64,000 nt of DNA from Heterotrichella gracilis (lineage: Eukaryota; Sar; Xanthophyceae; Tribonematales; Xanthonemataceae). The stretch covers positions 21,814 to 85,813 of the forward strand of contig JAULBX010018192.1 of NCBI GenBank assembly GCA_032358255.1, read 5' to 3'. A program made the position numbers and the translations under genes. Positions 7,031 to 46,780 of the stretch are shown piece after piece. The first letter of the stretch is position 1; each line of letters opens with the position of its first letter. The notes below the pieces were generated by a model that was not told the origin of the DNA, did no database searches, and worked only from the letters and a program-made list of their open reading frames with translations.

Positions 7031-10000
7031 ATGGCAACCTCTGCTATGGAACCCACGGTAAGAGACTCAGCAGAGGTAGCTACTGAAAGCAGTTCTGATG
7101 CCCCTATCACGAGGAACGAGTTTCCAGCCTTCCCTTTCAAGCCATATGGCATTCAGCTGGAGTTCATGCAACACCTCTATTCCGTCTTGCAAGCGGGAGG
7201 AGTTGGCCTCTTCGAAAGTCCGACCGGTGAGTAGTATTGGGTTTCTGCATACTCTGTGAATACACGCCTGTATCATATATTGGTGAGCCTCATCTTGAAC
7301 TATACTCTAACATCCCGTACCCTTGGGGTGCAGGCACTGGAAAGAGCCTGAGCCTGATCTGCAGCACGCTGCAGTGGTTGCAAGACACGAATGCAGCAGA
7401 AGCTGAAGCAAAGCAGACGGCAGCACCGGCAGATGGTAAGACACACCACCAATTGGTGGCACAAATGGGCCAGCCGCAAAACCACCATACTGTTACATCA
7501 GTACATGGTGCAGCACAAGATGGCTAGACACACTGCGTTACCACTCACTCTGCTCCCGCTACGCGCAGACGGGTATGACTTACCAGACTGGATGCTGGCG
7601 CAACCTGAAGCGGCTGCGCCCCGCGCCAAGCCCCACAAGGCCCACACGCTGTTCAGCCAGCAGCGCCAGCGGCCGCCCAAAGCATCACCTGCTGCGGAGC
7701 AAGGCTCCGAGGCGGCTGAGGACAGCTTTGCGCTGGAGGATGAGCAGGAGAAGGAGACAAGGAAGCGGGTGCACGCGGACAGCAGGTACAGTGTAGGGTT
7801 TGGGGCTAAACCCTAAACCATACTGCACAATGCCACTCAGCTGTGCAACCCATTCCACCAGTACAGCTGGGGTAGCAGTCCCCCCTGCAAACAGCCTGCA
7901 TCCCCCATCTCTGCCTTTGCAACCAAGTACATGCATTAGTCACACTCCAACCCCACGCCACCTACCACCCACCTCACCCACGGCCACCTCACCTCCCCCC
8001 ACCATCGCAGCGACGAAGGCGCCAGCAGCAGCAGCGAGTATGTGAGTGGGGCCTCATACCGCACAGCCAACCCGGTGCCTCCCCGGCGCCAGGTCATCAT
8101 CGCCAGCCGCACCCACAGCCAGCTGAGCCAGTTCATCAGTGAGATCAGGCGCACGCCTTTTGCTGACCAGCTGTCAGTGGTCACGCTGGCGTCGCGCAAG
8201 GTGGGTTGTGCTGGCGGTGCATGTGCGTACTCAGATGGCACGCAGGGAGTAGGGGGTGGGGAGTGTAAGTGGTTACTCTGGTGTCACGCAAGGTGGGGTG
8301 GGGGGTGCATGTGGTTACTCTGACGCCACGCAGGGTGGGGGGTGCATGTCTATCATCATGGTACCGTTTGAGGTGGGGGGCGGTGGTGCAAGTGGCCACA
8401 CTGACAACAAGCACGGCGATCAGGGGGGCAGGGGTGCATGTGGCAGGGGTTGGGGGTCCATGCGGGACAATGGTGTCACAGGCACTGCATCAACCCTAAC
8501 GTAGGGTTGTGTTCACAGGCACTGTGTGTCAACCCGACCTTGTCCCGCCTGCACTCCGCTGCCCGCATCAACGAGGCGTGCCTGGACCTGCAGCAGAGCA
8601 AGGGGGGGAAGAAGGCGCCAATAACGGGGACGGGAAAGGGAAAGGTACCGCTCTGGCATCTGGACCACTCTAGTCTCCTCATTGCACCAGTGCACTGATG
8701 TGCTAATTTCCTGACCGGAAGAATGATGCAATGCACCCCATGCGCATCACACATGTCTCCCCAGCATCACTTGAATGTGCAACCCAAACACATGAGTCAG
8801 CAGCCCTGAAACCCTACTATAAGGTGACGCTTAGGCATTTCATTTCAACCTCTTACTAACTGGTGATGCATAATAATGTTTGGCGTGGACGCCATTGTTC
8901 TACTAAAATTCTCACCAAGTTTGTGGTCCCGCCAGGCCAAAAGCACACCCCGGGGATGCCCTTTCCTGCGCCAGAAGCCCCACCAGCGGCAGGCAATGGA
9001 GGACGCCATCCTGTCCCAGCCAATCGACATTGAGGAGCTGGCGGCGCAGGGCGTGACGCACAAGGCCTGCCCCTACTACGCATCGCGTGCCGCGCTCCCC
9101 TTGGCTGATGTTGTGCTGGTGCCATACACTGCGGTGCTGGTCAAGGTGGGGAAGGATGGTGGGGAAAAGGGGGTGGGTTGTGTGTTGGGGAGGTGGGGGG
9201 TGGAGCTGGATGGATGCACATGTGGCTCCATGATGTTTCGTGTGTTAGGCAGAAAAGGTGGTTGGTGTTGTGCTGCATCATTACAGAATACCCATTCGTG
9301 TCATTCACCAACTATTGGGCAATTTGGCCTTGGTTATGAATTTCAAGGTGAAATTTTACCAATTTGACACCTCGATTCATCTAGAGAGAACAAGAATTCC
9401 CAATGGATCCCACACTGCCCATAATGCCTAAACGCAGGGGTTGCAAATAAATAGCCCGCCCCACCCACTACAACTCCCTTCTCTCCCTCCAGGAAACCCG
9501 TGAATCGCTTGGAGTGGCGATCAAAGGCAATGTGATCATCTTTGATGAGGCGCACAACCTGGTTGAGGCTGTGAATGGCAGCCACAGCGCCAGCGTCAGC
9601 AGGGGCCAGCTGGCATCAGCGCTGAGCCAGCTGGATGGCTACTGGGCAAGGTTCAAGATGCAGCTGTCGCCAGGTGGGGAGGGAGGTTGGTAGGGATGGC
9701 GGAGACTGACCAGCCATAATTTGCTGACCAAATCTTCCAGCGATATTGGCATTCTGTTACCGTATACATGTAAATTGAATGTGTGCAATGCCCACTGTGC
9801 ATTGCGGGACGGTACCTAATGCGCATGTGTGGGATGGCTTATGTGGCAATGTAGATCAGTCAGGGCTGTCACAGTACAGCACACCGCATAACGTTTTATA
9901 TTGCAGCAGCCAGTGACTCAGTGACTGTATGCCCCTTACATGCAGTCACTGCATGGGGTAGGCTTTTGAGCGTTTGGAAAGGCCTGGCTGTGCAACTTCA

Positions 10001-13000
10001 CTGGATCAAATGTGCCATGTGTTGGCATGCCTAGTATACTGCGCAGTCAACCAACCTTGCTCGCTCTGCTACGCAGTGAATAGCACACGGTTACAGCAGC
10101 TGATTTCGGTCACCAAAACCCTCTTAGGGTTTGTAGCTAGCCCCCAGCCAGCACCACAACCTGACCAGCCCAGTGCAGCCACCGCCACAACCACAGCCAA
10201 CGCGGCCACCACCACCCACCACAGCAATGCGCCAGCTGGCAGCGCATGTCATCCCCCGACTGCGGCTGCTGCCAGCAGTGCCACGCTGCCTGCTGTGACA
10301 ACTGTCAACAAGTTCCTGTCGGAGACCTCCTTGGACAACTTCAACATGTTTCAGCTGGCAAGGTAAAGGGGTGCAAGGCTACTCGCGGCTCTACAGAAGT
10401 CATATGTGATATGTTTCCACCTCTAAGTCATTGACATGGCAGATACCTTGCCTGCTCATTGCCCTAGCTAGGAGCTAGGAGCTAGGAGGCTCCTGATGCC
10501 TGCTGATGCGCATCACTGCAAAGGCGCAGGCGCACTTGTGATGGGGCCTCTCCCTGTCGCTGGCATGTGACCCTACGTGGACCATCCTGCACCTCTTGCA
10601 TGCAATACAGCCCACAATCGGCACCACCTCATGCGCACCTTGTGTGGCGTGCAGCTTTGTCAAGGACACCAAGCTCGCCTTCAAGGTGGTGGGCTACTCG
10701 GAGCTGGCGAGGGCCAAGGCTGACTCAGCACAGGAGCCACAGGCGGGTCAGCAGGGGGCAATCGCCAATGAAAGCGAAGGGGAGAATGGCCTGCCAGCCA
10801 TGCACAGCCTGGTGGGGTTCCTACTGGCCACCACCAACACGGATGAGGATGGGCGCATCATTTTGGACCCCGTCACGGGGGTGCTGAAATTCGTGCTGCT
10901 GAACGCGGCGGCGCATTTCGACCAGGTAGGAGTGTGGTAGCGTCGGTGGCACAAGAAGTTGGCATGGAGGTGTTGCTGGAACAAATCCTCTTAACCCTGA
11001 TGGGTTGAGGATGATTGATTCAAAGATGGTCAAAGATTTGATCTTGGTGCGCGCCTGCGTCATACCTCTGCATCTTTCCCAACCCTCCTCACGTACCCCC
11101 CTTCCCGAGGACTGCCTCAGATATTCACCAGAACTACCCCAAAGGCCTACTTAAACGACTAAATGCCTCCATTATTACCCTTACCAATCATTAACCATTA
11201 TTAATGGTAATATTACTATTTGTGCTGCAGGTGGTCCAGGCAGCGCACTCGGTGGTGCTCGCCTCCGGCACCCTCTCTCCCCTCCACTTCACCACCCACC
11301 AGCTCCTGCCCCACGTGCCACCTCAGCGCGTGTCGCACTTTGCCTGCGGCCACGTCATCCAGGCAGACAGGCTGGCGGTGCTGCCGGTGGGCAAGGGTCC
11401 CTCGGGGGTGGAGCTGCAGCTAAGGCATGAAGCCAGGGGGAGGGGGGAGATGATGGATGAAGTGGGGAGGCTGCTGCTCAACGTGTGCAACGCGGTGCCG
11501 CAGGTGGGGAGGGTGGTGGGGGGGATCAGGGGAAGGAGGGCCGTCAATGGCATGACAGGCAGGCAGTACAGACGCAGAGTTCAAAGATTCACTGTAATGC
11601 AACCGAGGCAGCAGCCATATTGAGAGTTTTCTTATTCCGTATTACTGGGGCTCGTTGGGATAATTCAGAGGCAAATAATACAGCAACCCCAGGTCACCCA
11701 ATCGGAGGGCAGTGAAAACCCAAATGGTCCGCATGTATGTCTACTACATCCACTCTTTCCGCTGACCCCGTCTATCCTTGCTGTTCCCTCCCCAGGGCGT
11801 GGTCGCTTTCTTCCCCTCCTTTGCCTTTCTGGACACAATTGTGGCCCATTGGACCGCCGGGGGGACCATGTCCTTGCTGTCCAAGCGCAAGCAGGTGTTT
11901 AGCGAGCCCAGGGCAGCGGGGGAGGTGGAGGCCATGCTGCGGCAGTACGCTGCCTGCATCGAGGGGGAGGGAGGGGAGGAAGGGAAGGAGAACAAGGGGG
12001 GAGGGAACGTGGTGGCGCAGGGGAGGCGCAGGGGGGCGCTGCTGCTGTGCGTGGTGGGGGGGAAGCTGTCTGAGGGGATCAATTTTGGGGATGGGCTGGG
12101 GAGGTAAGGAGCTAGCAGGGGTACTTGACCATTTCCAAAAATGAAGAAAAAGCCAATCCATTTTCGTCGCAAGGTTTGTACTGTGTCCAATGTTGGCAAC
12201 GCATGCCCAAGTGCACCAAATGCACATGCGCTGCTGTTGGTTTCCCAGAGCATCATGTTTGTAGCCCAAGCCGAGCTCTGCTGAATGTGGGCAACGTGCT
12301 TGTGGCTCACCAGGGTTTTGAGTCTTACCTACCGTCCCTACCCTTGCAGGTGTGTGGTCATCGTGGGATTACCATACCCAAACCCTACCGACCCAGAGCT
12401 ACGGGAGCGCATGCGATTCATCCAGTCCACCTACAGCGCACAGGAAAACCCTTCCAATCAGCAAAACCCTGCCCGCCAGCAAAACCCTACCCAGCACAAC
12501 CCCGGCAGCAAGCAAAACCCTAGCGGCGCTGCCACCCACGCCACCGCCCCCAGTGCAGCTGGCATAGCCGCCTCTCGGGAGTATTACGAGGACCTTTGCA
12601 TGAAGGCTGTGAACCAGTGCATCGGCAGGTGAGTTTGAACCCTATCTATAGTTCACTTCAAATTAAGTATTAACTTCTTAACTCACAAAAATCTCTAGAG
12701 ATATAATCCTCCCAACTTATTGACCTTCTGCGTGCAGGGTGATCAGGCACCAAGGGGACTACGCGGCGGTGGTGCTGGCGGACGCAAGGTAGGAGGGAAG
12801 GGATGGAAAGCTGGAGGGAGCTGTGGGTCTTGTCCACGCGGGTTGCATGGCCAATGCCAAAAGCCATTGGTTGGGCTGGCATTGGATATCGCCGCATGTG
12901 CTGTTGACTGGCTATGTACCCAGCAAATACCGTCATCACTGCAATTCAGGCCTTTACTGCAAATTCCCTGTGCAGAATGCCATGGCGATCCTATGGTGCA

Positions 13001-13385
13001 TGCATCAGGACAATACACAAATACCTTTACAGTACCCTTGCTAGACTTTGTTCTCCACAACATCAGACACTGGACACTGCATGCTGACGATGACCTGCGT
13101 GCATCAGAATGCCATGGCATTGCCATCACTGAGGATGTGGTGTGAATGCATCAGAATCCCAATGCCCGCGACCCATTCCACCCCACACACTCTCTACACC
13201 ACCCTTCCATGACCGTGTCCCTGCCTCACAGGTATGCCACAGGCTGTGCGACACCTGGCGCCCTCTCAGGCCCCATGCGCAAGCTGCCTGCATGGATGCA
13301 CGCCTCAATCACATGCCACACCAGCTTTGGCCAGACGGTGGGGCACCTGCACCGCTTCTTCAAGGCGCATGCGGCTGGGTGCTAG
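7031..13385 (+). CDS. CHL1: CHL1/DDX11-type Fe-S DNA helicase
   Basis: Superfamily 2 XPD-like 5'-3' DNA helicase used in sister-chromatid cohesion and replication-fork repair. Fourteen exons: 7031-7226, 7334-7435, 7569-7785, 8011-8200, 8519-8644, 8936-9145, 9493-9673, 10077-10362, 10655-10925, 11231-11503, 11796-12103, 12350-12628, 12738-12788 and 13232-13385. Phases agree throughout and give 947 aa, the usual size for the family. Seen in order: FKPYGIQLEFM Q-like motif, Walker A SPTGTGKS (about 63-70), IIASRTHSQ motif Ia, four Fe-S cysteines (about C238, C256, C285, C322), FDEAH box (about 364-368), LASGTLSPL, GKLSEGINF, and motif VI QCIGRVIRH, ending in TFGQ and HRFF. The LCVNP, CPFL and CPYY context fits CHL1/DDX11 better than XPD, FANCJ or RTEL1. 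Intron 4 is a minisatellite built from the exon 4 edge; intron 5 is introner-like. Confidence 0.95.
8201..8480 (+). repeat. CHL1: Minisatellite in CHL1 intron 4 built from the exon 4 edge
   Basis: The last 20 or so bases of exon 4 and its donor (TCGCGCAAG then GTGGG) recur as degenerate units of about 37-46 bp. Recognisable copies carry TCACGCAAGGTGGGG near 8283-8297 and CCACGCAGGGTGGGG near 8326-8340, each followed by a G-rich run and GGTGCATG. Several copies keep a usable-looking GT donor. Confidence 0.7.
8645..8935 (+). repeat. CHL1: Introner-like intron, copy 2 (CHL1 intron 5)
   Basis: This 291-nt intron is homologous to SR intron 5 at 5256-5525, matching from the GTAC donor through the CATCACACATGT block to the CCGCCAG acceptor. 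The best-matching regions are about 8703-8768 and 8888-8935. Both copies lie in sense orientation within their host genes, as introner-derived introns do. Confidence 0.75.
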
Positions 13386-14692
13386 GGTGTTGCGGGGTGA
13401 TGGGAGGGTTTTGGCGTTGGTAGTGCTGAGCAGGGAGTGTGGGCCCAGGTATTGAGTGCCATTGTTTTTGCAGCTGGCGCTGGGCGGCTGGGTGAAGTTC
13501 CGGGTAAGTGCTACGCAGTGTGCTTGTTATTTAGCTATTTTCCCCCGCATACGGTAGTTTATCAAGTTTTCTTGTCTGTTTACATAGTGTCGCTCGTAGG
13601 AAATATACAATGGAAGTTGCCGGTGGGTCTGTGACTTCTGTGTCTCACCGTGGATATATTTGGTCAGGCATGCTGTAACCTGTGGCGGAGCAAAGTTGTC
13701 AACTTGCCAACTTCTATGGCCTCATGGATGCGGCCGACTGAATGGTGGCATAGTGTCAGGAGTGTGTGTGGGAGGTGCTGCAGGCATCAGACAAGAGGCT
13801 GTGAGCTGAAGTGGTTTGTGGGCTTGCAGGATGTCTGCTGGCACGTACAATTGGCTAGATATTGCAGTGCCCATGGCCCATACATGCTTTTTGGCAATAT
13901 TGGGAATCCTCCCCGTTTAGTTTAACATGATTGCCTTCCCAAGGCCTTTTGCCAAGCACAGCATATCTGTAATTGCTGCAGCGCCTTGTGTTGATCAATG
14001 GCTACTTGCACGCGTTTATCCCTCCAATAGCTTGAAACGAGGAGCAGTTGCAACCAGACACTTGGGCTGCGCACTTCACTGTGCCAGTCGTACTGACCCC
14101 TGTGTGAGGGCACTGATCCAGCAGCAACCAGCAACAGCTTGCGCTCCCTCAAAGACCGATATCGCTTTCTGGCACATATCTTGTGTGTCTCGCGAGGTGA
14201 GTCGGTATATCCCATCTCCTAGGACGTGGGGCACCCAGACGGCTCCCGCCCCAGCTACTGCCCAGCTCCATTCATGGTATCCGCCCTGTAGCACACACAT
14301 TGCTTGGGCATTGGCTTTTCTAAGCTACAAACTGTGTGTGTGTGTATGTCTGTTGGGAGGTGGGCAGTGGTAGTTTGGTTAAGCTTGCTGAAAGTTTTAT
14401 GCTGTCAAGTATGTGCATGCATGCATTCTGTGGATACCTATTTGTATATAACTAGTCAATGGGCTATGCAAGCAGCTCGCGAGTTTGTGGGGCGCACATA
14501 TTAGTACATCTCATGAAAACCGCATGTTTTTGCAACCCTTGCGGGTGGTATGTGCTTTGGATGATCTACAACTTCGTGCCTAGCCACTACCATAGTAGCC
14601 AAACAGCTGTCGCTCTTACCCACCAGCTGGCCTCTGTATCAGGGTTGGATCGTCCCTAGCAACGCTCCTGTCAACGCCCAAAGTACCAGAAA
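13386..14692. other. Intergenic stretch after CHL1
   Basis: No gene recognised. It holds the helicase 3' UTR, a short GT-rich microsatellite near 14335-14346, an ATGCATGC-type run at 14414-14426 and the promoter of the secreted-protein gene that follows. Confidence 0.5.
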
Positions 14693-16595
14693 ATGCGCGT
14701 GGAAACATTATTCCTACTCCTCTGGACGGGCATCGCCCATCAAGTAGAAGCACAGAGGGTGGGCAGTGGGCTTGCAGAAGTGTATGTCCACTCCAGGAGC
14801 TTGCAACAAAGCTCAAGTGGAAACCTTACAGTCAACGCGTTCGTAGGTACGACACCTTCACAACTGCAGGCCATAGCTTCCCCAACTTTTGCCTCCACCT
14901 AGCATATCATGCCCATACCTTGGAACCCCATTCGGTAACTGCCCACAAGTGATCCAATGCTATTTGTAGGCATGGTGTACCGTATTTCTAGCCCACTGCA
15001 ACTTGCACACTTACCAGCTCTATTTCCAGGTCCGCCAAGGACATGCTTAACCAAAACCACGCCTTGACACTTTGCTCAAAACCCTATCTTAGGGACTCTG
15101 CAGCAGCGGTATGGCTGGAGCAACGGGGAGACTCAGGCCTGGCAGGCAGGCTCCGCCTCCTACCTGGACCAGTGTTTTGCCACTCTGAGCAGCGTGGATA
15201 GCTTGAATGCCATTGGCGGTGGCAGCACAGCGTGTGCGAGCGCCACAACCACTGGGGTATGCAGCAGGGAGTGCATGGCAAGCCTGTCAAAGGTAAGCGA
15301 GCAAGAGCGCTACATGTAATGCTCGTGCAGTGCAACCATTGGCGTGCCTTGTTCACCCATGTCAAAGGACTGTGGATGGCTGGATCAGTCCAACAGCCCT
15401 GCGGCCATATGTGCATGCTTTTGGAACACTTTACGCCCTTTGGAAGTGTGGACTGGCACGTGCGTACACATTTTTTGGCGGATTGTGCGATGGCATGGTA
15501 TGCTGTGGCTGGTTGCATGTGCTTACTTGCAACCTTGGTGTGCTTTGCAGCTCCCCTTTGCCTGCCGCAATGGAATCTCGACAGCACCAGAGCCCATTGG
15601 ATGCGGATTGTAAGTCACTCGCACAGCACAGCCAGTGTATGCATGCAGGAGCCAGGCGCTGGTGCCATACCCTGCGCTATGATTGCGAAGCAAAGTGCCC
15701 GCCGCTGCATGTGTGATGTGTGATGCCATGGCGGTACGGACATGGCGCCACTGCCAACTGCATGCAACAGAGCTTTTGCCTGGCCATCCTTTCATTCTGC
15801 AAGGTGTGCATGTTACATGCGCACCCATCGCAAAGTGATGGCATGCAACCCATCTCCATTTGCAGGACGTACCTGTTGAAAAAGTGCCGTATCCCAGTCA
15901 CCACCACTGCCAGGAATTGTAACTTTTCCCCCCCAGCATCTAGCTCACCACCCGCACAGCCGCCAGCGGTCGCCCCACAAATCCCACCACCAGCAACAGC
16001 GCCAGCACCAATGCCAGCAGGGAGCCCCATCGCTTCTCCCACCGTTGCACCAGCGCCGGTACCCAATGCTGCAACACCAGCGCCCATGCCTGCTGCAACA
16101 CCCCAGCCAGCCCTTGCACCCCTGATGCCGGCAGTGGTCACACCTGGTGAGCTGATGGCTTGATCTCGCGGCGACTAACGTGCCCATCATATGCTTTTCT
16201 AGGTCATGCATGCATAATCAGCTGCTTTTTAGGCCAAGCATGCATAATCAGCTGCCAAAATGTCAGATTGGGAATCAAGCACCTTGTCCATAGCATGGAA
16301 AGGAGCAAAGTCATCATTGCATGGAACGCTGCATACCGTGTAGCCCACTACATCCAAGCTTTGAATCATAATACTCCTTTTTCGTGTCATGCTGCTGTGG
16401 CGCATTTTCTCTAGTAACGCATGTGTTGTTCACCTTGCAGTGGGTCCTGCGACTGCCCCCAGCACAGACGTCGGGGTCTCTGGCAGCCTAGCCAGCCCCC
16501 CCCCTCCTCCCCACAATGCAGCAGCTACAGTCAGCGTATCCAGCTGGCTAGCTGCAGCTGCTGCCGTGGTTGTCGCGCTGGCGGCGCTTCTATGA
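14693..16595 (+). CDS. Secreted cysteine-rich protein, probably GPI-anchored
   Basis: No family recognised. Five exons: 14693-14846, 15093-15292, 15551-15609, 15866-16146 and 16441-16595; phases agree and give 282 aa. Residues 1-20 form a signal peptide (MRVETLFLLLWTGIAHQVEA). The middle (about 55-160) has spaced cysteines (DQCF, TACA, GVCSREC, FACR, IGCGL, KKCR, NCNF) suggesting a disulphide-bonded domain. Next comes a 100-residue Pro/Ala/Ser-rich stalk. The end is a hydrophobic tail (WLAAAAAVVVALAALL) directly before the stop, as in GPI-anchor signals. The likely site is the cell surface or wall. The layout resembles algal wall or agglutinin-type surface proteins in general form only. Confidence 0.72.
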
Positions 16596-18429
16596 GAGCC
16601 TGCTGAACGAGGTTGCACAGGAATGCTGGATCTCTACTGCACGATCCTCCAGAGTGCGCTGTGCAGTACAGCATGCTTATGGCTGCTTTGCCATTAGCAT
16701 CCTGCGCATGGCAGCTATACAGGCCATGGAGACAATGTCCAGCCTTAATGGAGCTAGAGAGAGGGGGCTGCCGCCGCTCTCATTACTCCTATATGTTTGG
16801 AGCACCGCATATGAGTAGGGGTGCGCAGATGCAGTACATGGGGATGAGGGTTTGGTCCAGGGCTGGGAGGGCGACTCTGTCCTCTGCAAGTTGAAACGAA
16901 TACCTTTGCAATTGCAACGAATGATCATGAATGTGGCTTGCTTTGCATAATGATAGCAGGGCCACCTGTGGTGGTTACAGTACATAGGCCAGCTTGCCGC
17001 AATGTGAGAAACGAACACATCTACCTTGGGCCGGGTCACCCGGCGCCACAAGATAGATTTTTTTTCTTGGAATGTACGTATTTATGAACATAGTAGCATG
17101 AATAACCCAGTGAAACCCGATCGGTGGGCCATCAAGACCCTTTGGCACAGATAGTATGCATGGTACAAAATCTGTAATTTCCACTAGGAGACAGAACATA
17201 AATTTTATTGCAGTGCGCAAAACGAAATTGTTGGTATGTGGAGTAATCGGTGCACCATCAGTCCATGTCACGACTACACAGATATTGCTCAGCATACTAT
17301 CAGTGTACTACTAGTATGGCATACTATTAGCATGTACGGGGCATGGGTACAAAATTTAATGAAGGGTGACCCATTGTACATGATTGTGAGGAACGCGTGG
17401 CTTCACTCGCCAACCGTTACGGTGCTGTCAGCCAGACGTATCGTATCATATAATGATTTTGACCACCTGGGATCTACAATTGGAAGACGAGCGCTCACTT
17501 GCAATATTGTACTCTGAGTCAGTTGCTGTCCCAGTGCTGTTGACTTCGTTGCATTTCACCCAAGGAAATTTTCTGCAGCCTGCCAAAATGTTGCAGGGGT
17601 ACTGTACCATCGCATGGTATACATGTTGCCAAATGGGGACCAACAAAATCGAACAGGTATAGAGGCTGATACTCCAGGCCGCCCCATCACAATTATGATC
17701 ATCATATGCCGTGCGCTCTTATACTATGGCACCAAGTCTTGCATACAGTCCCTGGGGTGGCATACGATGTGATGTTAACAGACATTTAGCAGCAAAGCAG
17801 TCTGATGCTCAGCCTGGACAGTCATTCCTCCATCTGCACTCTTTCGTTTCAGTGACTGCAGTACATGTAAACCATCTCCAGCACTCCTTTCAAATTGTCA
17901 CGGATACAATGGTCAGCACACTATATTCATCACATTACAACCTACTGCTGCGTTGGCAACGCAGCAGTAGGTTGTAATGTGATGAATATAGGTGCAGCAT
18001 GTCCACATTTTGCTGCAAACTTTGAATCAAAACTCCCCACATGGCCATCCGGGTGCAAATGTGTACACCATTAGGTGCGATGTATTTCATTGTACCCTAT
18101 CAGCATGGATGCTGCATGCATGTAGGTGTACTTGACTTAGGTCATTTAAATGGTGTTTTTCTACACATGGCACTCACCCTCATTATGGCCATAATCAGAC
18201 TGATTCAGATACTCTGTTCAACATCCTTTTTTAGCGCTTCCAGTTTCTGTTCAATGTCTTTCATCACTGCCTGCAGCCTGCACAGCATGCCGCATTGAAT
18301 GCATGTACATATTATTTTTCAGTCCCCAGAACAGGCAACTGAAAGCAGCATTACTAATTGAATTTGGCTGTGAGTCAGGTAATGTGCGAAACATAAATAG
18401 AGTGAAACATTTTGAACGCATTGAATGCC
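16596..18429. other. Intergenic stretch with a long palindrome
   Basis: No gene recognised over about 1.8 kb. The only strong structure is the perfect palindrome at 17921-17991, listed separately. The genes on the two sides converge here. Confidence 0.5.
17921..17991. repeat. Perfect palindrome, 35-bp arms with 1-nt centre
   Basis: The left arm starts CTATATTCATCACATTACAA and the right arm ends TTGTAATGTGATGAATATAG. The arms pair over all 35 bases around a single central G at 17956. With a one-base bulge, four further pairs form outside. It does not look like a terminator or tRNA. Confidence 0.9.
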
Positions 18430-19632
18430 TTACTCCTCTAGGCCTGTTCCCCTCTCCACAGATCTCTTTATCTGCGCCACAGCCAGTTCGTTGATCTTCT
18501 TCACATCTGCTGCAAAGTGCTCCTGCAGGTATGGAAAGGGACGTGTTGATCGCCATGATGCGTCATCAGTATTGCAACATGGGCTACAGGTTGGCGGTGT
18601 GTCAATGCCATTCATGACTGTCAGACCAGTGAACAATGTGCCTGAGAACATCAGCGCAAAGGCATTTGCACGCCCATGGATCCATATGCAAGGTGCATAC
18701 CCCAGTTGGCTGTGAGTGCAGTAGTCGCCGTTGGCCAAATGGATGGGGTGTTGCTATTCTGTCACTATGCCATGGCTCAGTAAAATTTGCACAGGCTGGG
18801 CATCATGCATAGCATTGCAGCTTTGGTGTGCAGACTATCAGCTGCCAGCATTGCGACATAATGGGCATGAAACAATCACTGGTGACACATGATGTTTGCG
18901 ACAATATGGATTCTGCAGACTCTTACTTACCATGATTGCACTCTGGAGTTCATCCGACTCTTTCATTCTCCTTGATGTCTGCGTGTGAGCAGCCTTTGCC
19001 TTTTTTTGCATCCTCACTGATGACCCGGATACCGCTGTGAGGTCCTCAGACAGTGCAGACTGCAGCTGTTGCTCAAGCTCCTGTATCTGGCATTGCAAAG
19101 CAGGTTTCAAAAACACATGCGGGTACTCAGGAGTGCTGTGAGCCTTTCACATTCACGCTGCATGGCCCACCACCAATGGCTGGCTTGCGTGGCACACTTG
19201 AGGCGCAGGCGCAGGCTTCTGTGGACTGCACTGGTTTAGGCCATTGGGATGGCAAGTATCAGCATGACCCACTGTGACCCATCTTTTGACTTTCCAAGGA
19301 ACAGCATTGGGTTAATGACAAGGGTAACCAACCTGTTGCTGTAGAGCAGTCCTGAGGCTGTCCACTGATGGGATACCCTCCTCATCCAACAGCAGCCTTG
19401 TGCCACCAATCATGGGGCCTGCTTGATCAACCACTGCCGTTATGTGGCCTCCCTTCCTCTTCTTCGATGCGGGTTTGGCTGCCAAGTCCTGCTTTCCAGT
19501 GGCAGCAGCCTTTGCAGGCTGGTGGGAGCCCTTGCCTGCTTTGGAGCCCTTGCCCAGTGGGACCTTCTCCTGAGTCTCAACTGTGGGCTGCTCTGTATCT
19601 GCAAACCTGAGTTGCTTTTTACGAGGAGCCAT
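18430..19632 (-). CDS. Small basic coiled-coil protein, function unknown
   Basis: Not recognised. Three exons on the minus strand: 19333-19632, 18931-19086 and 18430-18522, all in phase 0, giving 182 aa. The first 60 or so residues are Lys/Ala/Gly-rich with a KKRK stretch, a possible nuclear localisation signal. A conserved-looking segment GPMIGGTRLLLDEEGIPSVD follows. From about residue 95 to the end the sequence is heptad-like (TALQQQIQELEQQLQ, KESDELQSAIM, ADVKKINELAVAQIK), so a coiled coil is expected. The overall form resembles small chromatin, synaptonemal or kinetochore proteins, but no motif proves that. Confidence 0.68.
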
Positions 19633-22643: not shown

Positions 22644-24045
22644 ACTTGGATGGTTCATGACTAAGATAACCATTGCACTGTATGCCATGCATGTATACGC
22701 ATATGCAACCCTGCTGGGAAGGGCTGGAGTCACTGGACGGTACTAACAATCAGCTGCAGCTTTCATATGATGCACAGCGAGGCCTCATGTCACGTAATTT
22801 GATGGTGGTGCACCGTGCCGCTGATTTGCTTGGAGTTTTGGCAGCTCAAACACCTCCACATTTTTGCGCAAAATGTGGAGGTGTTTCAACGCCTAGCCTG
22901 CCACCGATATAGCCTACACAATTGCTTCTATGTGTGAAAACTCTTCTTTGTGGTATTTCAAAAAGGGCTATGTGTTCATATCAAATATTATTTGAGTAGC
23001 GAGTCCTCAGTGTGCCCATATTCTGCAGGCTCCCACTGCCACCAATTCTTTCCCCACTTTTTTGAAATATTTCAGAATTTAATTTTTTTTTCAAAATACA
23101 TTGGCAAAATGAATCAATATGTCATGGGTAAACTAGCAGTGTTTCGATGTGTACAAGCTGCTTGTTTTACATGCATGCCGCCATGGTGTGGTGCTGGTAG
23201 TGTGTGGTCAGTGACTAAGAAAATGACTATCGTCAGCAATCTTCTCTTCCTTTGACACACTGTAAAAGTACCCGATATTGTACTCTGTTTTGAATAATTC
23301 CTGATGAGTTATGACATATGAAGCTGGTGAATACAACACCAGATCTGGAATTGTGTCGACACTGTGGCCAATGCACTGGGGATACAACCATGAAAAAACT
23401 ATGAGGAATTGTGCGAGACGCCTATGAGGTAACCATGAGAAACTGTAACCCCCGTTTCCATAATGCCATTGCCCGGGCATGGAACCACACATGCATATCC
23501 TGGACTATTATATCCAATCAGAATTCAGATTTTGAACATTAGGAATTACAGGCAGTACACGGGTATTGCGGTGTACTCCAGATTCCTTTTTAAAAGGAAT
23601 GAATACTCAGCAAACGTTATAGAAGTGCTGAGATTTCAGTCACTGCAATTGAAATTATGCAGCCTCAAATTGCTAAGATCAAAGTCACGGTCACAGCACG
23701 AGTAGTGGAGCAGTGCTGTGCCACAATAAAACATAGAACCAATGGCATTGAAATGCCACCATGGACCACCGTGGACGTCTTTTGTTGAAAAACAAATCAA
23801 TGTATTTTTCAAAAATATCTATGCTCACTGACGTTGCTTATACGAGTCACATCGTGTTGAACTAATTGCAAAATTTTCACGACTCCACACTTGGCTTTCT
23901 CCACGCGTCGCCGACAATTATTGGCATAAAGACCTTCAGCTCTCTGAGCCCTCCAAACTGCTCTGCCAAGCTACTCGAACACAATGAGCGCAGGGAGCTG
24001 AAAGTATGGAGGGGCTCTCACTGGGTGGTTCAACAACTGTGCACC
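22644..24045. other. Convergent intergenic region
   Basis: Lies between the 3' ends of the F-box gene and KdsA. It contains the 17-bp-arm stem-loop at 22848-22886 and A/T-rich sequence around 23040-23110. No gene is seen. Confidence 0.5.
22848..22886. repeat. Stem-loop, 17-bp perfect arms
   Basis: Left arm AAACACCTCCACATTTT (22848-22864), loop TGCGC, right arm AAAATGTGGAGGTGTTT (22870-22886). It lies about 205 bp past the F-box stop codon, so it could shape the 3' end of that transcript. Confidence 0.85.
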
Positions 24046-26933
<2,888 letters not shown>

Positions 26934-26972
26934 ATGTGGCCGGAGCTTTGTTTGTGACGTGGTGTCGTTGAG
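26934..26972. promoter_or_regulatory. Very short divergent spacer between KDSA and D-cysteine desulfhydrase
   Basis: Only 39 bp separate the two predicted start codons. Promoter elements of each gene must therefore lie inside the other gene's first exon or intron, unless a further upstream exon exists. An ATGCATGC run lies at 26827-26839 in KDSA intron 1, and the desulfhydrase ATG itself sits in ATGCATGC. Confidence 0.55.
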
Positions 26973-28863: not shown

Positions 28864-29133
28864 ATGGCTGCCACAGGATTGACTGGTTCCAGACTGATTG
28901 GTTCAGAAGCGTTGTGGTGCGAGACAGGTGAAATTGCAATGATTGCATCTGCCAATGCCAAATGATGCACTATTCTAATTGCTATGGATGCGTTTGCTGA
29001 TGCACTTCTTTGTCCTCAGTAACAGGACATACATTTCAATATTTTTGATCACAGCTGTATAGCTAATAGCTCTTGTGTTCTGATCACTGCCTCCTGTTGG
29101 TCCACATTCTCACAACGGGCACCTGTAGGGTGA

Positions 29134-31281
<2,148 letters not shown>

Positions 31282-32183: not shown

Positions 32184-34350
32184 ATGGGCAACACAGTGTC
32201 GATGTTTAGACCGTTTGGAGTCAAGCCGTGCACTGCACATGGAAGTGCAGTTGCCCAATCAAGCAGGGCCCAGGCCAGCGGGGGCTTGGTCACCGCCACC
32301 GCCACCGCCAACGCAGCGCCACAAGGTGAAATATCGCAAGGCAAAACTGGCGTTGCCATGGTGGACAAGCTGTATGACGCCACCATAACGCCAACCTCAA
32401 CACCTTGTACCCCAGATCACCTGGTGGGGCCCCCTCAAATCACCAGTGGTGCCTGCGCCTCTCAACTCCTCCTCCTCCTCTCAGCACCGCACTCACGTGC
32501 ACTGCTTCCCTCCACAGGACGGTTATTCAGGTTTGGGATCGCCACAGACGTGCAGTACGCTGACATACCAGATGGGTTCTCATTCCATGGCACAGCGCGG
32601 TACTACAGAGGCAGCCTAGTCGGCCTCAAGCATGCAGTACAGCACTGGAATGACCAGAACGTGGAGTTCGTGATGCACCTTGGAGACATCATCGATGGGA
32701 ATGCTCGCACCCACTCTGAGAAGGCCATGGGGGACGTGCTGGCTGAGTTTGAGCAAGTGGGCAAGCCGGTGTGGCACATCATCGGCAACCACTGCCTGTA
32801 TAACTTCAACAGGTGAGGTAGCAATAAACACCGCAGCTTGGCATGCAAATGGCATATGAGTGGATGACAACAATTGGTTATGTCTCATGTGCCAGTCCTG
32901 GACCTCATCACCTCCCAAACAAAAGCTGGCAGGTCGATGGATCGCAATGCAAAATCGTGACCGCATCCATTTATCCGATATGATGGGGCCCAGCAGTTGT
33001 ATGCATTCCAGCATTCCATCCACACTAGCAGTCAGCCTTGCACATTCGGTGCCAAGCAGTTTGGCCTTGGGTGATCATCGATGTCCCCATTTCTTGACCT
33101 TGCGGGATCTGGAGGTCCTAGGCTTTCCACCGAATCACGCCCCAAATTGTTGCGCTTTACAGGGAGCAGCTGAACGCGTTGCTGAACATCCGTGCAGAGG
33201 ATGGTGTGGGCAGCCACTACTCGTTTATCCCTCACAAGGGGTGGAGGATCGTGGTGCTGGATGGGTATGACATCTCCATGCTGGGCTGGCCAGAGGACCA
33301 CCCCCACCATGCGCTGGCCAAGAAGCTCCTGGGCAAATACAACCCTAATGAGGTATGTGTGATGCCAGTGTGGGGATTCAGATGACGATCGTGACATGGT
33401 GTTGGAACCAGGGCAGCTTGCATGGGGCCAGTGTGATGGCATGTGACCCTGAGCAGGACCTGGCCATGGTACTGATGTCATGAGGGTGCATGCACCTGGA
33501 ACAGAGTGGGATGAATTGCTGACCAGCGCGGGTGCATCATTTCTGCACTCATGCCAGCTGGACTGGACATAGGTATGTAAGCATGCAGCTGTCACAGTTA
33601 TTGCCCACATGCCGTCCCCCCAACCCACTCCCACTCTTCCCACAGGAGAAGAATAACCCCGAGGGACTGGTCGACCTCATGCGCCGATTCGTCAAATTCG
33701 GGGGGGGCATTGGCGTCCCGCAGCTGGCCTGGCTGAAGCGCCAGCTGGCAGATGCTCGCGCCTCCAACCAGCGTGTCATACTCGCATGCCATCTGCCCAT
33801 ATTCCCGGGGACGGCGGCCCCCGCCTGCCTGCTTTGGAATTATCAGGAGGTCCTGGATGCCATAGCTGAGGCGGGGAATGTGGTGGCCACGCTGGCAGGG
33901 CATGCACACCAGGTGGGGAGAGCTGACCAAATACCCTGCCCATTTACCCTTAACACTTTGGGTATATATTTTTTTAATATGTTAATAACACTTATACCTG
34001 CTTTTACTAATAAAAAATTATATGTATTCATTTGAAGATCATGCCCATTATTTCCTTCCCCCCAACCATATTAACTCATGCCCTACATCATGTTCACCCT
34101 CCCTACACCCCCTCAGGATGGCTACATTGTCGACCCCTCGGGGGTGCACCACCGAGTGCTGAAGGCCATCCTGGAGACGCCGCCTGGCGAGCTGTGCTTC
34201 GGCCACATGGACGTGTATGACGACCACCTGATGCTGCATGGGGTGGGCACGATGCAGAGCGCACGCATGGAGTTTGGTCCACTGGGGGTGAAAGAGCAGG
34301 CGAATGGGGAGGTGGGGGTGGAGGGGGTGCAGGTGGAAGTGGAGGCGTGA
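32184..34350 (+). CDS. Mn-dependent ADP-ribose/CDP-alcohol diphosphatase (ADPRM-like)
   Basis: Calcineurin-fold metallophosphoesterase; relatives hydrolyse ADP-ribose, IDP-ribose and CDP-alcohols. Five exons: 32184-32325, 32518-32812, 33163-33352, 33646-33912 and 34117-34350, giving 375 aa. Metal motifs are seen in order: FGIATDVQYAD, HLGDIIDG, IIGNHCLYNF, ACHLPIFPG and LAGHAHQDGY. The first intron (192 nt) is a multiple of three and open in frame; it has a strong CT-rich acceptor, so it is treated as an intron, but its retention would leave a functional-looking protein with 64 more residues. The N-terminus MGNTVSMF fits an N-myristoylation signal, so membrane attachment is possible. The start is the first ATG in this frame. 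Confidence 0.9.
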
Positions 34351-35192: not shown

Positions 35193-40616
<5,424 letters not shown>

Positions 40617-41152
40617 GGTACTCTGCATATGCATGCATTAGGTCAATGGGGTTCGTTCGCTGAGGGGTTGGACCATGAACCTGCTGTGATATGGGTTACA
40701 CGCCGTTACCATGTTGGCTTGCGCTGACATTCTAGTTCCACAGGTATATGCCCGACAGGAGTGTTTTGGCGGGAAATACAGCGGGCATTCGAGTACTCGT
40801 TCAAATATGAAGCATGAAGAAATGACACTGTTTTCGACCAGAACAACATCGCCCTGCGATCGCCGACCGGTACGTAAACGGCATCGACCTTCGATCGCGA
40901 CGCGTTGGACATGCCGGGCTGTGATCTTTGCAGTTCTCATCAACAACCCCAACACAGCAGGACTTGCCGTGGGGAAAGGCCCATATGCATGCATGCTACT
41001 TGCCTGGACAACGCAGGAACATCCTATCCCACTGGATCACACTCTGCTCATTCTCGACTAGGGTTATGGTGTAAGGGTTCTGGCCCGCCCACTTCACGCC
41101 GCCGCCGCCCGGGGCGTGCTCCTTCGGCCAGCTTCAGGTCCACATATACAGC
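40617..41152. promoter_or_regulatory. Divergent promoter region of RecQ1 and ORC4
   Basis: 536 bp between two start codons pointing away from each other. It holds two long ATGCATGC-type runs, at 40625-40638 (9 bp before the RecQ1 ATG) and 40982-40996 (156 bp before the ORC4 ATG). Joint cell-cycle control is plausible but only inferred. Confidence 0.6.
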
Positions 41153-44100
41153 ATGGCAGGCGTCACCAAGAAGAAACCGCGTGCATCACCCAGCGCTGCC
41201 AGCGACAGCTTGGACGAGTTTGCCATCGAGCTGAGTGACGGCTCAACGTCGCAGGTTGGATTACACTCGCCTTTTTACCCGGGTCTCGCCGCTGTTAACC
41301 ATGTTAACCATCCAGATAAGGGGTTGAATTACTTTGTTCTTACGTGGACAGTGTAGTGTTCTGTGGTCTGTACTGCTAACGTCAGCAGTGTAACGGGTTC
41401 ACACATAGTCAGTCCACCATTACTCCACTCCCCCGTTGATTGCCAATCCAATGAGCGAAACTGCACCCACAAGCAACCCAGGGAGGGATCCCCCCCTGCT
41501 GCAACGTATTCCACAGTGGCTTGTGGGCGTTGTAGAAAGTTGCTCGTTGTGGATGTGGCCAAAAAGGAAAGAGCCCTTGACACCCCCTGAACATCCCAGG
41601 AGGAGATGCCTCAAGTCCAGTCCCGGAAAAAGCAAAAACTGGAGAGCACGCATGGCGCAACCCCGAAACAGGCTGAGGGGACTGGAGGGAGCTCAAAAGC
41701 AGTCCCAGGAAGCTCCAAGTCTGCCAGAAGGATTGCAGGGAGTCACAAGCAGGCTTCGAGGAGCCACAAGCCTGCCACCACACCATACCTACCTCCCGCT
41801 GGCTTATCTGGTGTGCCACATAGGCTGACCTGACCCAGCAGAACAGAACTGCGCAAGGTCAATAGATGGTGTAAACAATGCCGGGACAGAACTGCTTGGC
41901 GCCGCTTGTGCAAGGCTCACTACTTATAGGCTGCACTGCTGGAATGCATGCATCTCAGTGTTCCTTCACAACAGCAGCAGTAGCTACATAGCAAGATGGC
42001 AGCCGATCACTCCCAAGGGACTGACCTTGCAAGTGCACCCATCATGCGTATTTTGTTGCAACTTCAAAGGGTGACAGTGACATTGTGCCGTGGGCATCCG
42101 CACGCGTACGTGACTGACGTGCGCCACTGGTGCGGTCCCTCGCAGGCACCAGCCTACAGGCCCAGCCCAAGCACACAGCCCCAAATGCAGCTCCCAAGCG
42201 TGTGGTTTCTCCAACAGCCTTCTACGGCACAAACCCTCCACCCTTCCAACAGATGCGCATGGCAACCCCCCTGGCATCAGCACCAGCACCAAGCCCAGTG
42301 GGCAAGCAGCGTGATAGGCAGGGGGCAGGGGCGCCCTCGCCCATCAAGGGAGCGGCCCAACAGCTAGGAAAGGGGATGGCGGGGGGGGGGCTAGCGAGCA
42401 GGGGAGGGGCGTCGCCGGCTGGAAAAGGGAGGGGGCCGGTGGCGCCTGGTGTGGAGACAGCGGGGAAAGCCAGTGCGAGGGTTGAGCAAGGGGGAAAAGA
42501 GGAAAGGAAGGGGACCAGCAGGGCAGGGGAGCATGCCAGCCAGCAGCCCAAACCTCTACAGGCCAAACCGTCACAGGTCAAAGCTGCTCAGAGCGTTGCC
42601 TCCCCAAGCAAACAACCGCAGGCAAAACCCCAGCAGGGCAAACCTTCCCAGGCCAGTCCTTCACAGGCCAAGTCTGCACAGACCAAAAGTGCACAGGCCA
42701 AACCTGCCAGCCAGCCAGCAAAACCCGCACAGGCCAAACCTGCCGAAGCCAAAGCCTCCACCAGTAAACCCCACCAGCAGGCGCAACCTCAAAACCAGCA
42801 ACAGCAGGCGAGTGGTCGGGGGGGTGCACCCACTCACATGCCCTCCCTACCTGAGAGGAGGGCCACCCGCCACACCCAGCAGCAGCCTGCGCCCTCCCCT
42901 CCTCACTTGGAAGACGATGCACCCCCCCTTGCATCGACATCCACAGCACCCCCTCCTGCCGCCAAGCAGCCCTCACCATCCAAGGGAGGGAAAACAGCCA
43001 CCACAAATGGGAGGCCGCGCGCCCCGGCTCCAGAGCCTCCACCACCACCACCACCAGCGCCACCAGCACCCACCCCACCAGTGGCGGACCCCTCCCACCA
43101 CCCCACCATCCAATGGCAGCGCCCCGCCCCCTCCCAGAGCGCTGAGCACCCCACCACCACCCCCTTTGCCGAAGCCCGCACCTACCTGCGGCACCGCCTG
43201 TCTGACATGCGGTCGGACGCAGCGGCGGAGATGGTGGTGCGGGAAACCCTAGTTGGGGTTCAGCAGCGCCTGACTGCCCTATTGGCTGAGACTGTGGAGG
43301 AGGAGGGGCACAACAACTCGGTGCTGGTCATCGGGGAGCGAGGGGCGGGGAAGACCCTGGTAGGTTAAATAAGGTGTTGGGGGGTAGATTTTGGGCTTGT
43401 GTTTGGAGGGTAATGATGCCATTGGTTGAGGGTGGTGGGGCCGCAGGACGCCATTGTGATTGAATAATTTGGGGTGGGTGTTTGATTGCATTTGAAATAA
43501 TGGTGATTGAGGATGATAGAGCCAGTAGACGAGGAGGGCCAACAACTCAGTGCTGGTCATTGGGGAGCGGGCCCTGAGGAACACGCACTGGTAGGGTTTT
43601 GTGGGGTTTGTGCATGTAGATCTGTGGGGTGTGGGAGTTGAATGAGGCTCTGACCGCCCCATGTGGCAAATCAACCCTGCAATTTGATGAGCAAACACAC
43701 CGCTTTCGATTAACCTGGCGCAGGTCGCTCAAAAAGCACGCCTACCATCCCTCTCAATACCCAACGCATTTCATCTAAAAATGCCTTCACACACCCTCTA
43801 GAACCCTACCCTTCGGCTCCCAAACGTGCACTACAATGCCCCTCTCAAACCCTATCGTGGGTGGAACCCTAAACCCTACCCCATGATGTTGATTCTCAAA
43901 CCGTACCGTAGGTTATTGAGCGCACCCTCAAGGCCCTCCTGCAGCACACCAACAGCGAGGGCACAAACCCTAGGGTAGGGTTGGTGCGCCTGAGCGGCCT
44001 GGTGCACACCGACGAGAGAGCGGCGTTTCGGGAGATTGCTCGCCAGCTGTGCCGCACCTTTGGGTGCGGGTTTGTGAAGAGTGCGTCGTTTGACGAGAAC

Positions 44101-46780
44101 TTGGCATTCCTAAGGGAGGTGCTGCAGGAGCTGCGCAGGTGGGGAGGAAAGGGGGGAAAGGGAAGGGTAAATGCATACGGGTTCTGTAGTGGGGAGCAGT
44201 GGGGGATGGACTGGGGAGTGGAAGAGGGTGCGCACGTGGTACAAAAATGCAATCTAGGAGTACAGCAAGGCAAGAAGTGCATGCGAGGGGTGACCACATG
44301 CCTGTTCAGAGATCATTGCTCCTTCATGATTAATGTATGGATGATCAGTGAAACCGCAAGGCACCCTGCTCTGACACACCCACCCCTGCACCACCCAGCT
44401 TGGAAGCCTGGGCCACTACCGGAAGTGTGAAACCACTGCCCACCCTCACTCATCCCACCCCCCTCCCTCTGCAGGAGCCACAAGGTGGTTGTGTTTGTGC
44501 TGGAGGAGTTTGACCTGTTTGCGCGCGGCGCCAAACAGACTGTGCTGTACAACCTCCTGGACACGATGCAGGCATCAAACATGCAGGTGGGTGGGCTGGA
44601 ACTTGACCCCAAAACCCTAAATCCCAAATCCTAAACCCTGACCCTGGTTGCCCCCTGTCCTCCCACAAGCTGCGAGTCTAATGTAATTGATCTGGAACCC
44701 TGAAACCCACAGGAAGAAGACCTAGCGCACTCTGCTGTACCTCCATCCCTGGCCGCTTCCATACCTCCCAAATTGATACGTATATGTGTTGGCAATTTCA
44801 ATCTGCGCCGGTAAAAGCACACATATGTGCAGTAATTAAAACCACAATGGGGCTACGGTGGTAACTAATAATACCCTCGTGTGTGGTACAGGTAGCGGTG
44901 GTGGGCACCAGCTGCCGCCACGACGTGGTTGAGCACCTTGGCAACCCTAAACCCTACAGCAAAAGCCTGAAACCCTTGTGTGGTCAGAACCAGCTGCCGC
45001 TTTTGGCTCATTGCCTTCTGTGCCCTTACAAAACGCATTTGTGTGGTGATCAATTGGGCGAGTAGCTGTTAAAACCCTTGTGGGGGGTTTGCAGGCAGCG
45101 GTGGTGGGCACCAGCTGCCGCCACGACGTGGTTGAGCTCCTAGACAAGCGGGTGAGGTCACGCTTCTCGCACCGCAAGCTGGTCATCACCCCCCCCGCCA
45201 CCTGCTCCACCCCCTCCGACCTCCTCTCGGCCACCCTGACGCTTCCCCCCTGGATGCGCCATGCGGAGGCTTTCAACGCATCGCTGGGGGTGGCCCTGGG
45301 GGGTGCGGAGGTGCAAAGGGAGCTGGAGCAGTGCTTCAGTTTCACAGGTAGGGGGGAGGGCTTTTTGGGGTTAGTATTTGGGTTCAGGCCTTGGTTAATA
45401 TTACATTAGGACCTATTGTAAAAGTGGCGCTCCTTCTATTGGCAGGGATGCGGAGTGGTTAGGGAATGGCTACCGTATTAGTAAGTCGTGTTCCTGTCAA
45501 GTAGCTAGTCAGCCTTGTACACAAGGCGCCAGGCATTGTCCTCACGCTACATTGCAGCCAAAAACCACTTCATGAAATCAGCTTTCATATTTAATGGGGA
45601 TGGCTCGCAAACCCTCCCATTTACCGCTCCAACCACTCCCCCATTTACCGCTCTGCCCGCTCCTCCATAGGGTTCACTGGGCGCGACATCGTTGAGCTTG
45701 GTACACGCGCGCTGTGCAATGTGGAGGCGCCAGGTGGCACGCTGGCAGCGCGACACATCAGCGCAGCCCTCCGGGAATACAAGGAGACGGACCTGGGCCA
45801 GGTGAGCTCAACCCCCTGGTTGCTGTCATCCCCTGCATGGCGAATTAGGGGCATGGCGATTCAGGGTCGAGAAAGGCTAAGCACCTAGGGGCTTGGCGAT
45901 TTTGTGTTCAGTTAGGGCCATCTGTTGAAAGCCAACATTACCTGTACTCTGTCCCCAGTATTCCTGCATCCCCAGCTGTCAGGTACAGCTGTCAGGTACT
46001 TGTCATTGTACTTATCCTGCCTCACCCCAACCCACCACACACCTCACCCAGGTCGCCGCCGTCGCCTCCCTCTCCGTGCTCGAGCTCTACCTCCTGGTAG
46101 CCATGCTGCGGCTGCGCGCGCGGGACCGGCTGGTTGTCAACTTCGCCATGGTGTGGGGGGAGTACGCTCGCCTGGTTGCACTCAAGCCGGACCTGCAGGA
46201 CAGGTACCAGCGACCCGCAGCGCTGGTTGCCTTCCACCACCTGCTGGCCAAGGCGATGGCGGGGCCGGTGGACGCACGGTGCGTGGTTTGGGATGGTGGA
46301 TGGTGAAGGGTCCAGGGTTGTAGAGCTTTGCGATGTTGGGCGGGGAATGCGCAGGTTCAAGCGGACCGGTGCACTGCTTGCTTTCCGCCATAGTGCTGGC
46401 CATGGCGGGGACCGGGGCTGTGCGCTGGGTGGCGCTGGATTGTTTAGGGTTTAGGGTGGCTAGGGTGTGGGGTCTGGGTTGAGCCATGTGACTAGGAACA
46501 TGTGAGTAGATGTAGATGACTAGGCCACGCTGATAATGGCCCAGCCATCCGGGGCATTCCAATCCCTGGAATACCCCCGGGCATCCTAACCCCCACCCTT
46601 TCCTGCAGTGCCGAACATCGTGGGGGCCTCCAGGAGTTCCAGGGAGTTGAGGTGTATGTGGCTGTGGCTGAGGTGGCTGAGGGCCTGGACCGCCACCCCA
46701 AGTGCCCCGCTGAGCTGCGCAGCTGGCTGACCAGGCCTGCGGAGGAGGGGGGGGATGCTGCGGATGTGGTCATGGACTGA
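41153..46780 (+). CDS. ORC4: Origin recognition complex subunit 4 with a long disordered N-terminus
   Basis: AAA+ subunit of the replication origin-binding complex. Nine exons: 41153-41254, 41600-41810, 42146-43359, 43912-44138, 44475-44586, 45095-45347, 45671-45801, 46052-46278 and 46609-46780, giving 882 aa with all phases agreeing. The ORC4 core occupies about residues 450-882: VIGERGAGKT Walker A (about 499-508), VVVFVLEEFDLFA Walker B, VVGTSCRHDVVELLDKRVRSRF with the sensor and arginine region, then a winged-helix end. Residues 35-440 are low complexity: Lys, Ala, Pro and Gln with repeated QAKP-type units. Typical ORC4 is about 420-440 aa, so this one is doubled. The join of exons 1-2 to exon 3 rests on phase and splice signals only. 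Introns 3 and 5 carry decayed exon copies. Confidence 0.92.
42530..42830 (+). repeat. ORC4: QAKP-type low-complexity repeat within ORC4 exon 3
   Basis: Degenerate units of 4-6 codons encode LQAKPSQ, PQAKPQQ, SQAKSAQ, AQAKPAS and similar. The nucleotide core is CAGGCCAAA. The protein segment would be basic, proline-rich and disordered. Confidence 0.8.
43528..43597 (+). repeat. ORC4: Decayed copy of the ORC4 exon 3 edge inside intron 3
   Basis: Matches 43297-43366, covering the Walker A end of exon 3 plus its donor. Shared blocks include CAACAACTC, GTGCTGGTCAT, GGGGAGCG and CTGGTAGG. The copy has an indel and a broken P-loop code, yet keeps a GGTAGGG donor. Confidence 0.85.
44892..45000 (+). 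repeat. ORC4: Two partial copies of the ORC4 exon 6 start inside intron 5
   Basis: 44892-44938 repeats the first 45 or so bases of exon 6 (45095-45141) with one or two differences, including its CAG acceptor. A shorter copy with CCAGCTGCCGC lies at 44984-45000. Using the upstream copy would shift the protein into unrelated sequence after VVEHLGN. Confidence 0.9.

Follow-up and report, generated by a model that had tools for sequence, protein, structure and literature searches.

Decayed copies of exon edges in Heterotrichella gracilis introns point to probable local tandem duplication across existing splice sites

Introns in the sampled genome of Heterotrichella gracilis (68.5 Mb, 903 contigs, unannotated) carry decayed copies of their own exon edges, and the best reading of these copies, one that we hold to be probable, is local tandem duplication across existing splice sites, acting at exon-intron borders. 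Five cases lie in the genes CHL1, ORC4 and RecQ1 of the window, by which we mean the whole 64,000-nucleotide stretch of contig 183 that was analysed. The copies are wider in the genome than these five cases, being present in about one sampled intron in eight. In the sample, they sit at borders in the sense orientation, are confined to the adjacent intron, decay neutrally, occur in longer introns and fall into two offset classes.

The five cases had been named in an earlier note on this DNA. Each exon edge was re-aligned with its own intron, using 1,000 dinucleotide shuffles of the intron as the control (Table 1). The observed score was reached by 0 of 1,000 shuffles in every case: CHL1 scored 52 (shuffle maximum, 28), the first and second ORC4 cases 58 and 99 (maxima, 27 and 28), and the first and second RecQ1 cases 65 and 40 (maxima, 31 and 26). 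All five copies are therefore real, and they are found in sense only, as the note had claimed, since the antisense scores (16 to 19) are close to the shuffle means (16 to 18). A blind self-BLAST of the whole window recovered four of the five named cases, the weaker RecQ1 copy at 37798 being absent. It returned six direct repeats within 2 kb, namely, these four cases and two exon-internal repeats, and no direct repeat within that distance was wholly intronic or intergenic. For the first ORC4 and second RecQ1 cases, the tested alignment ends before the splice site, and its continuation to the splice site was followed by eye.

Table 1. Host gene models, exon edges and their intronic copies in the window
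Feature	Position	Strand	Basis
CHL1 (DDX11/FANCJ-like helicase) gene model	7592..13385	+	HMM gene finder and homology; first exons upstream of 7592 missed
CHL1 exon end (exon ends 8200) with donor, original	8172..8225	+	Re-alignment; exon end from HMM model
CHL1 decayed copy of exon end and donor, intronic	8264..8313	+	44/50 identical; 0/1000 shuffles
CHL1 further partial copy	~8308-8342	+	By eye only
RecQ1 helicase gene model	35193..40616	-	HMM gene finder and homology
RecQ1 acceptor and exon start (exon 36920-37098), original (first case)	37022..37115	-	Re-alignment; RecQ1 homology
RecQ1 decayed intronic copy of acceptor and exon start	37210..37301	-	70/92 identical; 0/1000 shuffles
RecQ1 exon stretch near donor edge (exon 37915-38137), original (second case)	37940..37979	-	Re-alignment
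RecQ1 decayed copy in following intron, weakest of five	37798..37837	-	32/40 identical; extension to donor by eye
ORC4 gene model	42253..46780	+	HMM gene finder and homology
ORC4 exon stretch near 3' end (exon ends 43359; Walker A region), original (first case)	43288..43340	+	Re-alignment; ORC4 homology
ORC4 decayed copy in following intron	43519..43569	+	44/51 identical; donor-like site 43591 by eye
ORC4 acceptor and exon start (exon from 45095), original (second case)	45062..45147	+	Re-alignment; homology to human-type ORC4 continuous here
ORC4 copy of acceptor and exon start in preceding intron	44861..44944	+	72/84 identical; copied acceptor ends 44891

The sample consisted of the window and 25 stretches of the genome (24 of 10 kb and one of 813 bp), from which two AT-rich stretches and the 813-bp end were left out, so that the window and 22 stretches (0.28 Mb) were analysed. 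Three stretches, L002 (contig C1, 894 kb), L005 (C100) and L023 (C520), have a GC content of 36 to 39%, the sampled genome otherwise having 51 to 58%, and may represent an organelle or another organism. Gene models were obtained with a simple two-strand HMM gene finder that was trained on the sample and then applied to the last five stretches. This gene finder called some copies exons (CHL1 8334-8433, ORC4 44892-44924 and several in L011), which lowers the counts given below and mislabels some repeats. The identities of the host genes were established with hand-edited queries for RecQ1 (483 bits versus 7a8r), ORC4 (180 bits versus 5uj7) and the CHL1 fragment (80 bits versus FANCJ 9ej9); from the ORC4 and CHL1 queries, copy-derived or read-through residues were taken out by hand before the search. 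The HMM itself left the copy at 37210 out of the RecQ1 model, and in the homology-checked genes the real junctions run without the copies. Homology also backs the L017 DEAH helicase model, and six of seven further model pieces matched a Pfam family, the seventh matching none. Among the 120 matches listed, the nearest to the RecQ protein were those of trebouxiophyte green algae (Trebouxia, Myrmecia and Micractinium), at 62 to 64% identity.

When the 60 nt of each flanking exon that lie next to the intron were searched in that intron (score of at least 36), a copy was found in 37 of the 289 introns of the window and the 22 stretches; an initial run had given 36 introns of 251. The same edges matched in 0 of 11,320 comparisons with length-matched introns of other genes and in 0 of 3,326 comparisons with non-adjacent introns of the same gene, and antisense copies occurred in none of the sampled introns. 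The copies are thus confined to the adjacent intron, and chance as their source is ruled out by the shuffles together with these edge-intron controls. Comparing introns with their own and with shuffled exon edges was the check that the earlier note had proposed, and the outcome supports both its reading of a process rather than chance and the origin that it had suggested, tandem duplication across exon-intron borders. In the window, the automatic count flags 2 of 65 introns, which is low because the gene finder calls some copies exons and because one case either scores too low or falls outside the 60 nt that were searched.

A self-BLAST of the sample (at least 42 bits, offset up to 450) returned 73 local direct HSPs: 53 of border type, 6 exon-exon, 5 intergenic, 4 intron-intron and 5 mixed. 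The border-type HSPs, 38 spanning the border and 15 matching exon with intron, group into 44 clusters; the donor edge was duplicated in 21 HSPs, the acceptor edge in 21, and 11 had no assigned edge. By eye, several of the 20 non-border HSPs resemble exon edges of missed genes (L011 2271, L016 7734, L012 7395 and 7420, and L004 7097), and two intron-intron HSPs resemble simple-repeat arrays (L014 4986 and L015 1702); the counts keep all of these as first classified. A single, weak inverted HSP of border type was seen (at least 31 bits, 120 to 200 bp apart).

Mismatches between exon and copy amount to 94 of 930, 89 of 936 and 186 of 920 at codon positions 1, 2 and 3, respectively (10.1, 9.5 and 20.2%), a 1:1:2 pattern that fits a freely decaying copy combined with synonymous change in the constrained exon. 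The copies decay neutrally and lack the coding constraint by which tandem exon duplications or alternative exons would be recognised. Among 18 alignments with at least 25 intron bases, the mean difference is 17% in the intron part and 10% in the exon part. The estimated ages of the clusters spread from K = 0 to 0.195 substitutions per site per copy, which fits a process running until recently. Since the splice dinucleotide is identical in 38 of the 42 copies where it could be aligned, decoy splice sites, as predicted from the sequence, do exist. The other expected consequence, lengthened introns, is likewise borne out: the median intron length is 427 with long-offset copies (n = 22), 333 with short-offset copies (n = 21) and 261 in the others (n = 246), although long introns also offer more room for a distant copy.

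The offsets of 47 adjacent-copy pairs form two classes, about 108 and 186 bp, with 22 offsets in the range of 67 to 118, 19 in the range of 171 to 213, two between (144 and 146) and four above (231, 237, 258 and 393). A fitted lognormal expects 17.8 offsets in the gap of 119 to 170, where 2 were observed, this test having been picked after the gap was noticed. The exon part makes up a mean share of 0.45 of the offset in short clusters and 0.30 in long ones. In 14 of 24 short-offset HSPs (offset up to 150), the alignment covers at least 0.75 of the unit. Two of the 14 come from multi-copy overlaps; in the 12 others, the join ranges from an 8-nt overlap to 25 nt extra, with the ends blurred by decay. 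Such joins may be products of end joining. The remaining 10 of the 24 leave 37 to 83 nt unaligned. In long-offset units, the stretch between the copies can scarcely be recognised. Decay has gone much further in their intron half than in the exon half, which is not what one simple event decaying at a fixed rate would leave. Compared with control introns, this stretch shows likeness on the side predicted by full-unit duplication (P = 7e-7; 10 of 28 units exceed the control 95% level) and none above control introns on the opposite side (P = 0.30; 3 of 28). Such units may be old full-unit duplications or copies inserted with unrelated filler.

Borders seem to be duplicated far more often than plain non-coding DNA: 44 clusters are at borders, 4 are intron-only and 5 are intergenic, and two of the intron-only clusters sit inside border arrays of L011. 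A different account is that tandem duplication is uniform over the genome and that border pairs merely stay visible, because selection holds the exon copy while both members of a non-coding pair decay, twice as fast. The long-offset units speak for it, in that they keep the exon half well and have an intron half that is nearly unrecognisable yet above control introns on the predicted side (28 units). So does a simulation in which duplications were planted in real introns and intergenic DNA (25 trials per setting; 0.15 indels per substitution): the share of non-coding pairs detected was 96 to 100% at K = 0.10 and fell to 40 to 92% at 0.15 and 4 to 28% at 0.20. At the estimated ages of the 44 clusters, however, mean detection is 0.85, and most non-coding pairs should still show. 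Uniform placement, with clusters weighted by age, predicts about 81 intron-only and 153 intergenic clusters, and the short-offset class alone predicts about 62 and 101; these predictions rest on a single rate for the whole sample, at odds with the differences between contigs, and on detection simulated at one unit length, so that their direction and rough size can be trusted and their tail probabilities cannot. Even at a lower cut (31 bits, direct pairs 40 to 280 bp apart), we counted 62 border-type pairs against 7 intron-only and 5 intergenic ones, along with 11 exon-exon and 8 other pairs. We therefore regard uniform duplication as unlikely.

Other origins can be weighed against the same data. 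If a mobile piece had inserted at the border, the duplicated exon edge would be its long target-site duplication, and one filler (L011 6652-6724) is indeed a dispersed repeat that is also present in the window and on two other contigs. Of 22 other fillers (one searched in part), 21 are unique in the genome and the last one matches two short stretches elsewhere, and insertion would be expected to strike intron interiors more than borders, which makes this origin very improbable. Slightly less credit still can be given to the idea that the copies are alternative exons or splice-control elements retained for their function: the splice dinucleotide is identical slightly more often than the roughly 81% that would follow from 10% decay, but the copies show the 1:1:2 pattern rather than codon constraint, have gaps within the exon part in 17 of 53 cases, lie at offsets divisible by three in 14 of 47 pairs (counted by hand) and hold one exon edge, not whole exons.

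Intron gain via tandem duplication of an exonic AG/GT segment is a mutation of the same class, described from other eukaryotes (PMC3443670, PMC2891723). It should leave copies across donor and acceptor with an offset equal to the intron length, a label pattern present in 1 of the 53 border HSPs; on inspection, that HSP is the CHL1 case, whose copy was mis-called an exon, and we give this origin hardly any weight. An assembly or sequencing artefact would agree with the concentration of cases on short contigs, yet errors would not leave copies that differ from the exon by about 10% at each of the first two codon positions and by 20% at the third, and searches brought up no second version of the ORC4 region or of the L011 gene; we consider an artefact practically out of the question. 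A second haplotype or organism was rejected on the same absence of a second L011 gene or ORC4 region and on the similar codon usage of long- and short-contig loci. Overall, intron gain, introners and alternative exons fit worse than tandem duplication at the border.

The clusters are unevenly distributed, with 36 in 130 introns on contigs of up to 65 kb and 8 in 159 introns on longer ones (Spearman, -0.66; P = 9e-4; 22 loci). Short contigs may be where such sequence breaks the assembly, or the effect may be regional. Each of the seven rotations of the telomere-like heptamer CCCTAAA is present 92 to 182 times in the sampled introns, same-letter permutations having a median of 15.5, and these heptamers are denser in duplication-rich loci (Spearman, 0.63). 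Interstitial telomere repeats were nevertheless rejected as the cause: there is an association per intron (odds ratio, 3.6; P = 2e-4), but long introns favour both. Short runs of the heptamer are strongly enriched in introns of the window and the sampled loci, with TTTAGGG found preferentially towards the start and CCCTAAA towards the end of the intron. The G content just past the donor is 0.361 in donor-duplicated introns (n = 20) versus 0.285 in others (n = 251; P = 0.013), but the C content before the acceptor shows no matching excess in acceptor-duplicated introns (P = 0.35), and targeting by G or C runs was not retained.

Several other repeats were noted. The introns at 5256-5525 (SR-protein gene) and 8645-8935 (CHL1), in neighbouring genes, have a 69-bp stretch in common (81%), and their 3' ends with the acceptor are also alike (33 bp, 88%); when each intron was searched against the whole genome, it matched the other and no third copy, which looks like a one-off copy from intron to intron. 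A dispersed intronic repeat of about 75 to 130 bp occurs at 38844-38950 of the window, at L011 6652-6724, and in L030 and L031, the window copy being flanked by two 14-nt copies (~38815 and 38946) that resemble a target-site duplication. Another, of about 65 bp and 80% identity, is found in both orientations at 32995-33059, 41888-41950 and 63932-63996 of the window and also in L018 and L008. Self-complementary hairpins of the window (17916-17995, 22848-22886, 52781-52931, 57221-57322 and 57504-57633; best, 96% over 81 bp) are reminiscent of small inverted-repeat transposons.

In plants, fill-in tandem duplications, with overlap or filler at the join, arise after paired nicks or patch-mediated breaks; the copies described here are likewise short, direct and tandem and may have similar joins, and we know of no border preference in the plant events. 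Introners and intron transposition also let extra sequence accumulate in introns. Here, no shared intron family was found, either in the between-locus comparison of the sample or in genome searches with the fillers and two introns (very common words skipped), which lends introners no support. Tandem genomic duplication that creates introns, as outlined in PMC3443670 and PMC2891723, similarly involves a short direct genic duplication with splice motifs, the extra copy of which is spliced out; in our cases, unlike in that process, the splice site pre-exists within the unit, and the intron would lengthen with no new intron position. Local repair-mediated duplications of vertebrates can include splice sites and, as described in PMC2671141, are local, span tens to hundreds of base pairs and leave a copy without coding constraint, all of which resembles our cases. 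The extra copy here also lies near its source (adjacent intron only; offsets, 67 to 393). In that report, however, partial exon/intron pieces account for 4 of 824 donor sequences, and an exon copied in the opposite orientation is mentioned, whereas here border units and direct copies dominate: instead of non-coding sources in either orientation, we find 44 border clusters versus 4 intron-only and 5 intergenic ones, with the copies in direct orientation. The comparison is a loose one, as that study relied on transposons that had been interrupted and removed close tandem copies from its set. In PMC11782384, direct repeats found at splice borders are taken to be left by break repair; they are 4 to 30 bp long and come from comparing the 5' border with the 3' border, while here a single border contributes tens of bases to the intronic copy. 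Among titles and abstract openings of the open-licence literature, we found no published description of border-directed duplication. Our cases differ from the known systems in that duplication strikes borders that already exist, would give rise to no intron and seems to pass over plain non-coding DNA.

Under local tandem duplication, a unit of mostly about 70 to 120 or 170 to 215 bp, made up of tens of exon bases, the splice site and a stretch of intron, would be duplicated in place. The outer site (the first donor or the last acceptor) would stay in use and leave the mRNA unchanged; the extra copy would become intron and decay without constraint, so that the intron grows, and repeated events would produce the two- and three-copy arrays. 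We infer that end joining or slippage generates the units and that a feature of the border (polymerase pausing, G-rich intron starts or nucleosome phasing) attracts the lesion. What sets the process off is the least secure element of this explanation, and nick or break repair at borders is put forward tentatively. Equally speculative is a mutation process aimed at borders. It would favour units of about 108 and 186 bp and be concentrated in neighbourhoods rich in telomere-like heptamers; transcription, splicing or chromatin phasing would place the new DNA, and introns would grow inwards from their edges; the larger unit length lies close to a nucleosome repeat.

For annotators, the copies are a warning, given that a gene finder took several of them for exons. 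For the biology of this genome, fossil copies of an intron's own border in about one sampled intron in eight provide a dated series of events, many of which keep the copied splice motif. Intron lengthening and the birth of alternative splice sites are usually discussed in terms of transposons or intron gain. With such copies, it can be tested whether splice borders attract mutation and how the spliceosome chooses between near-identical neighbouring sites.
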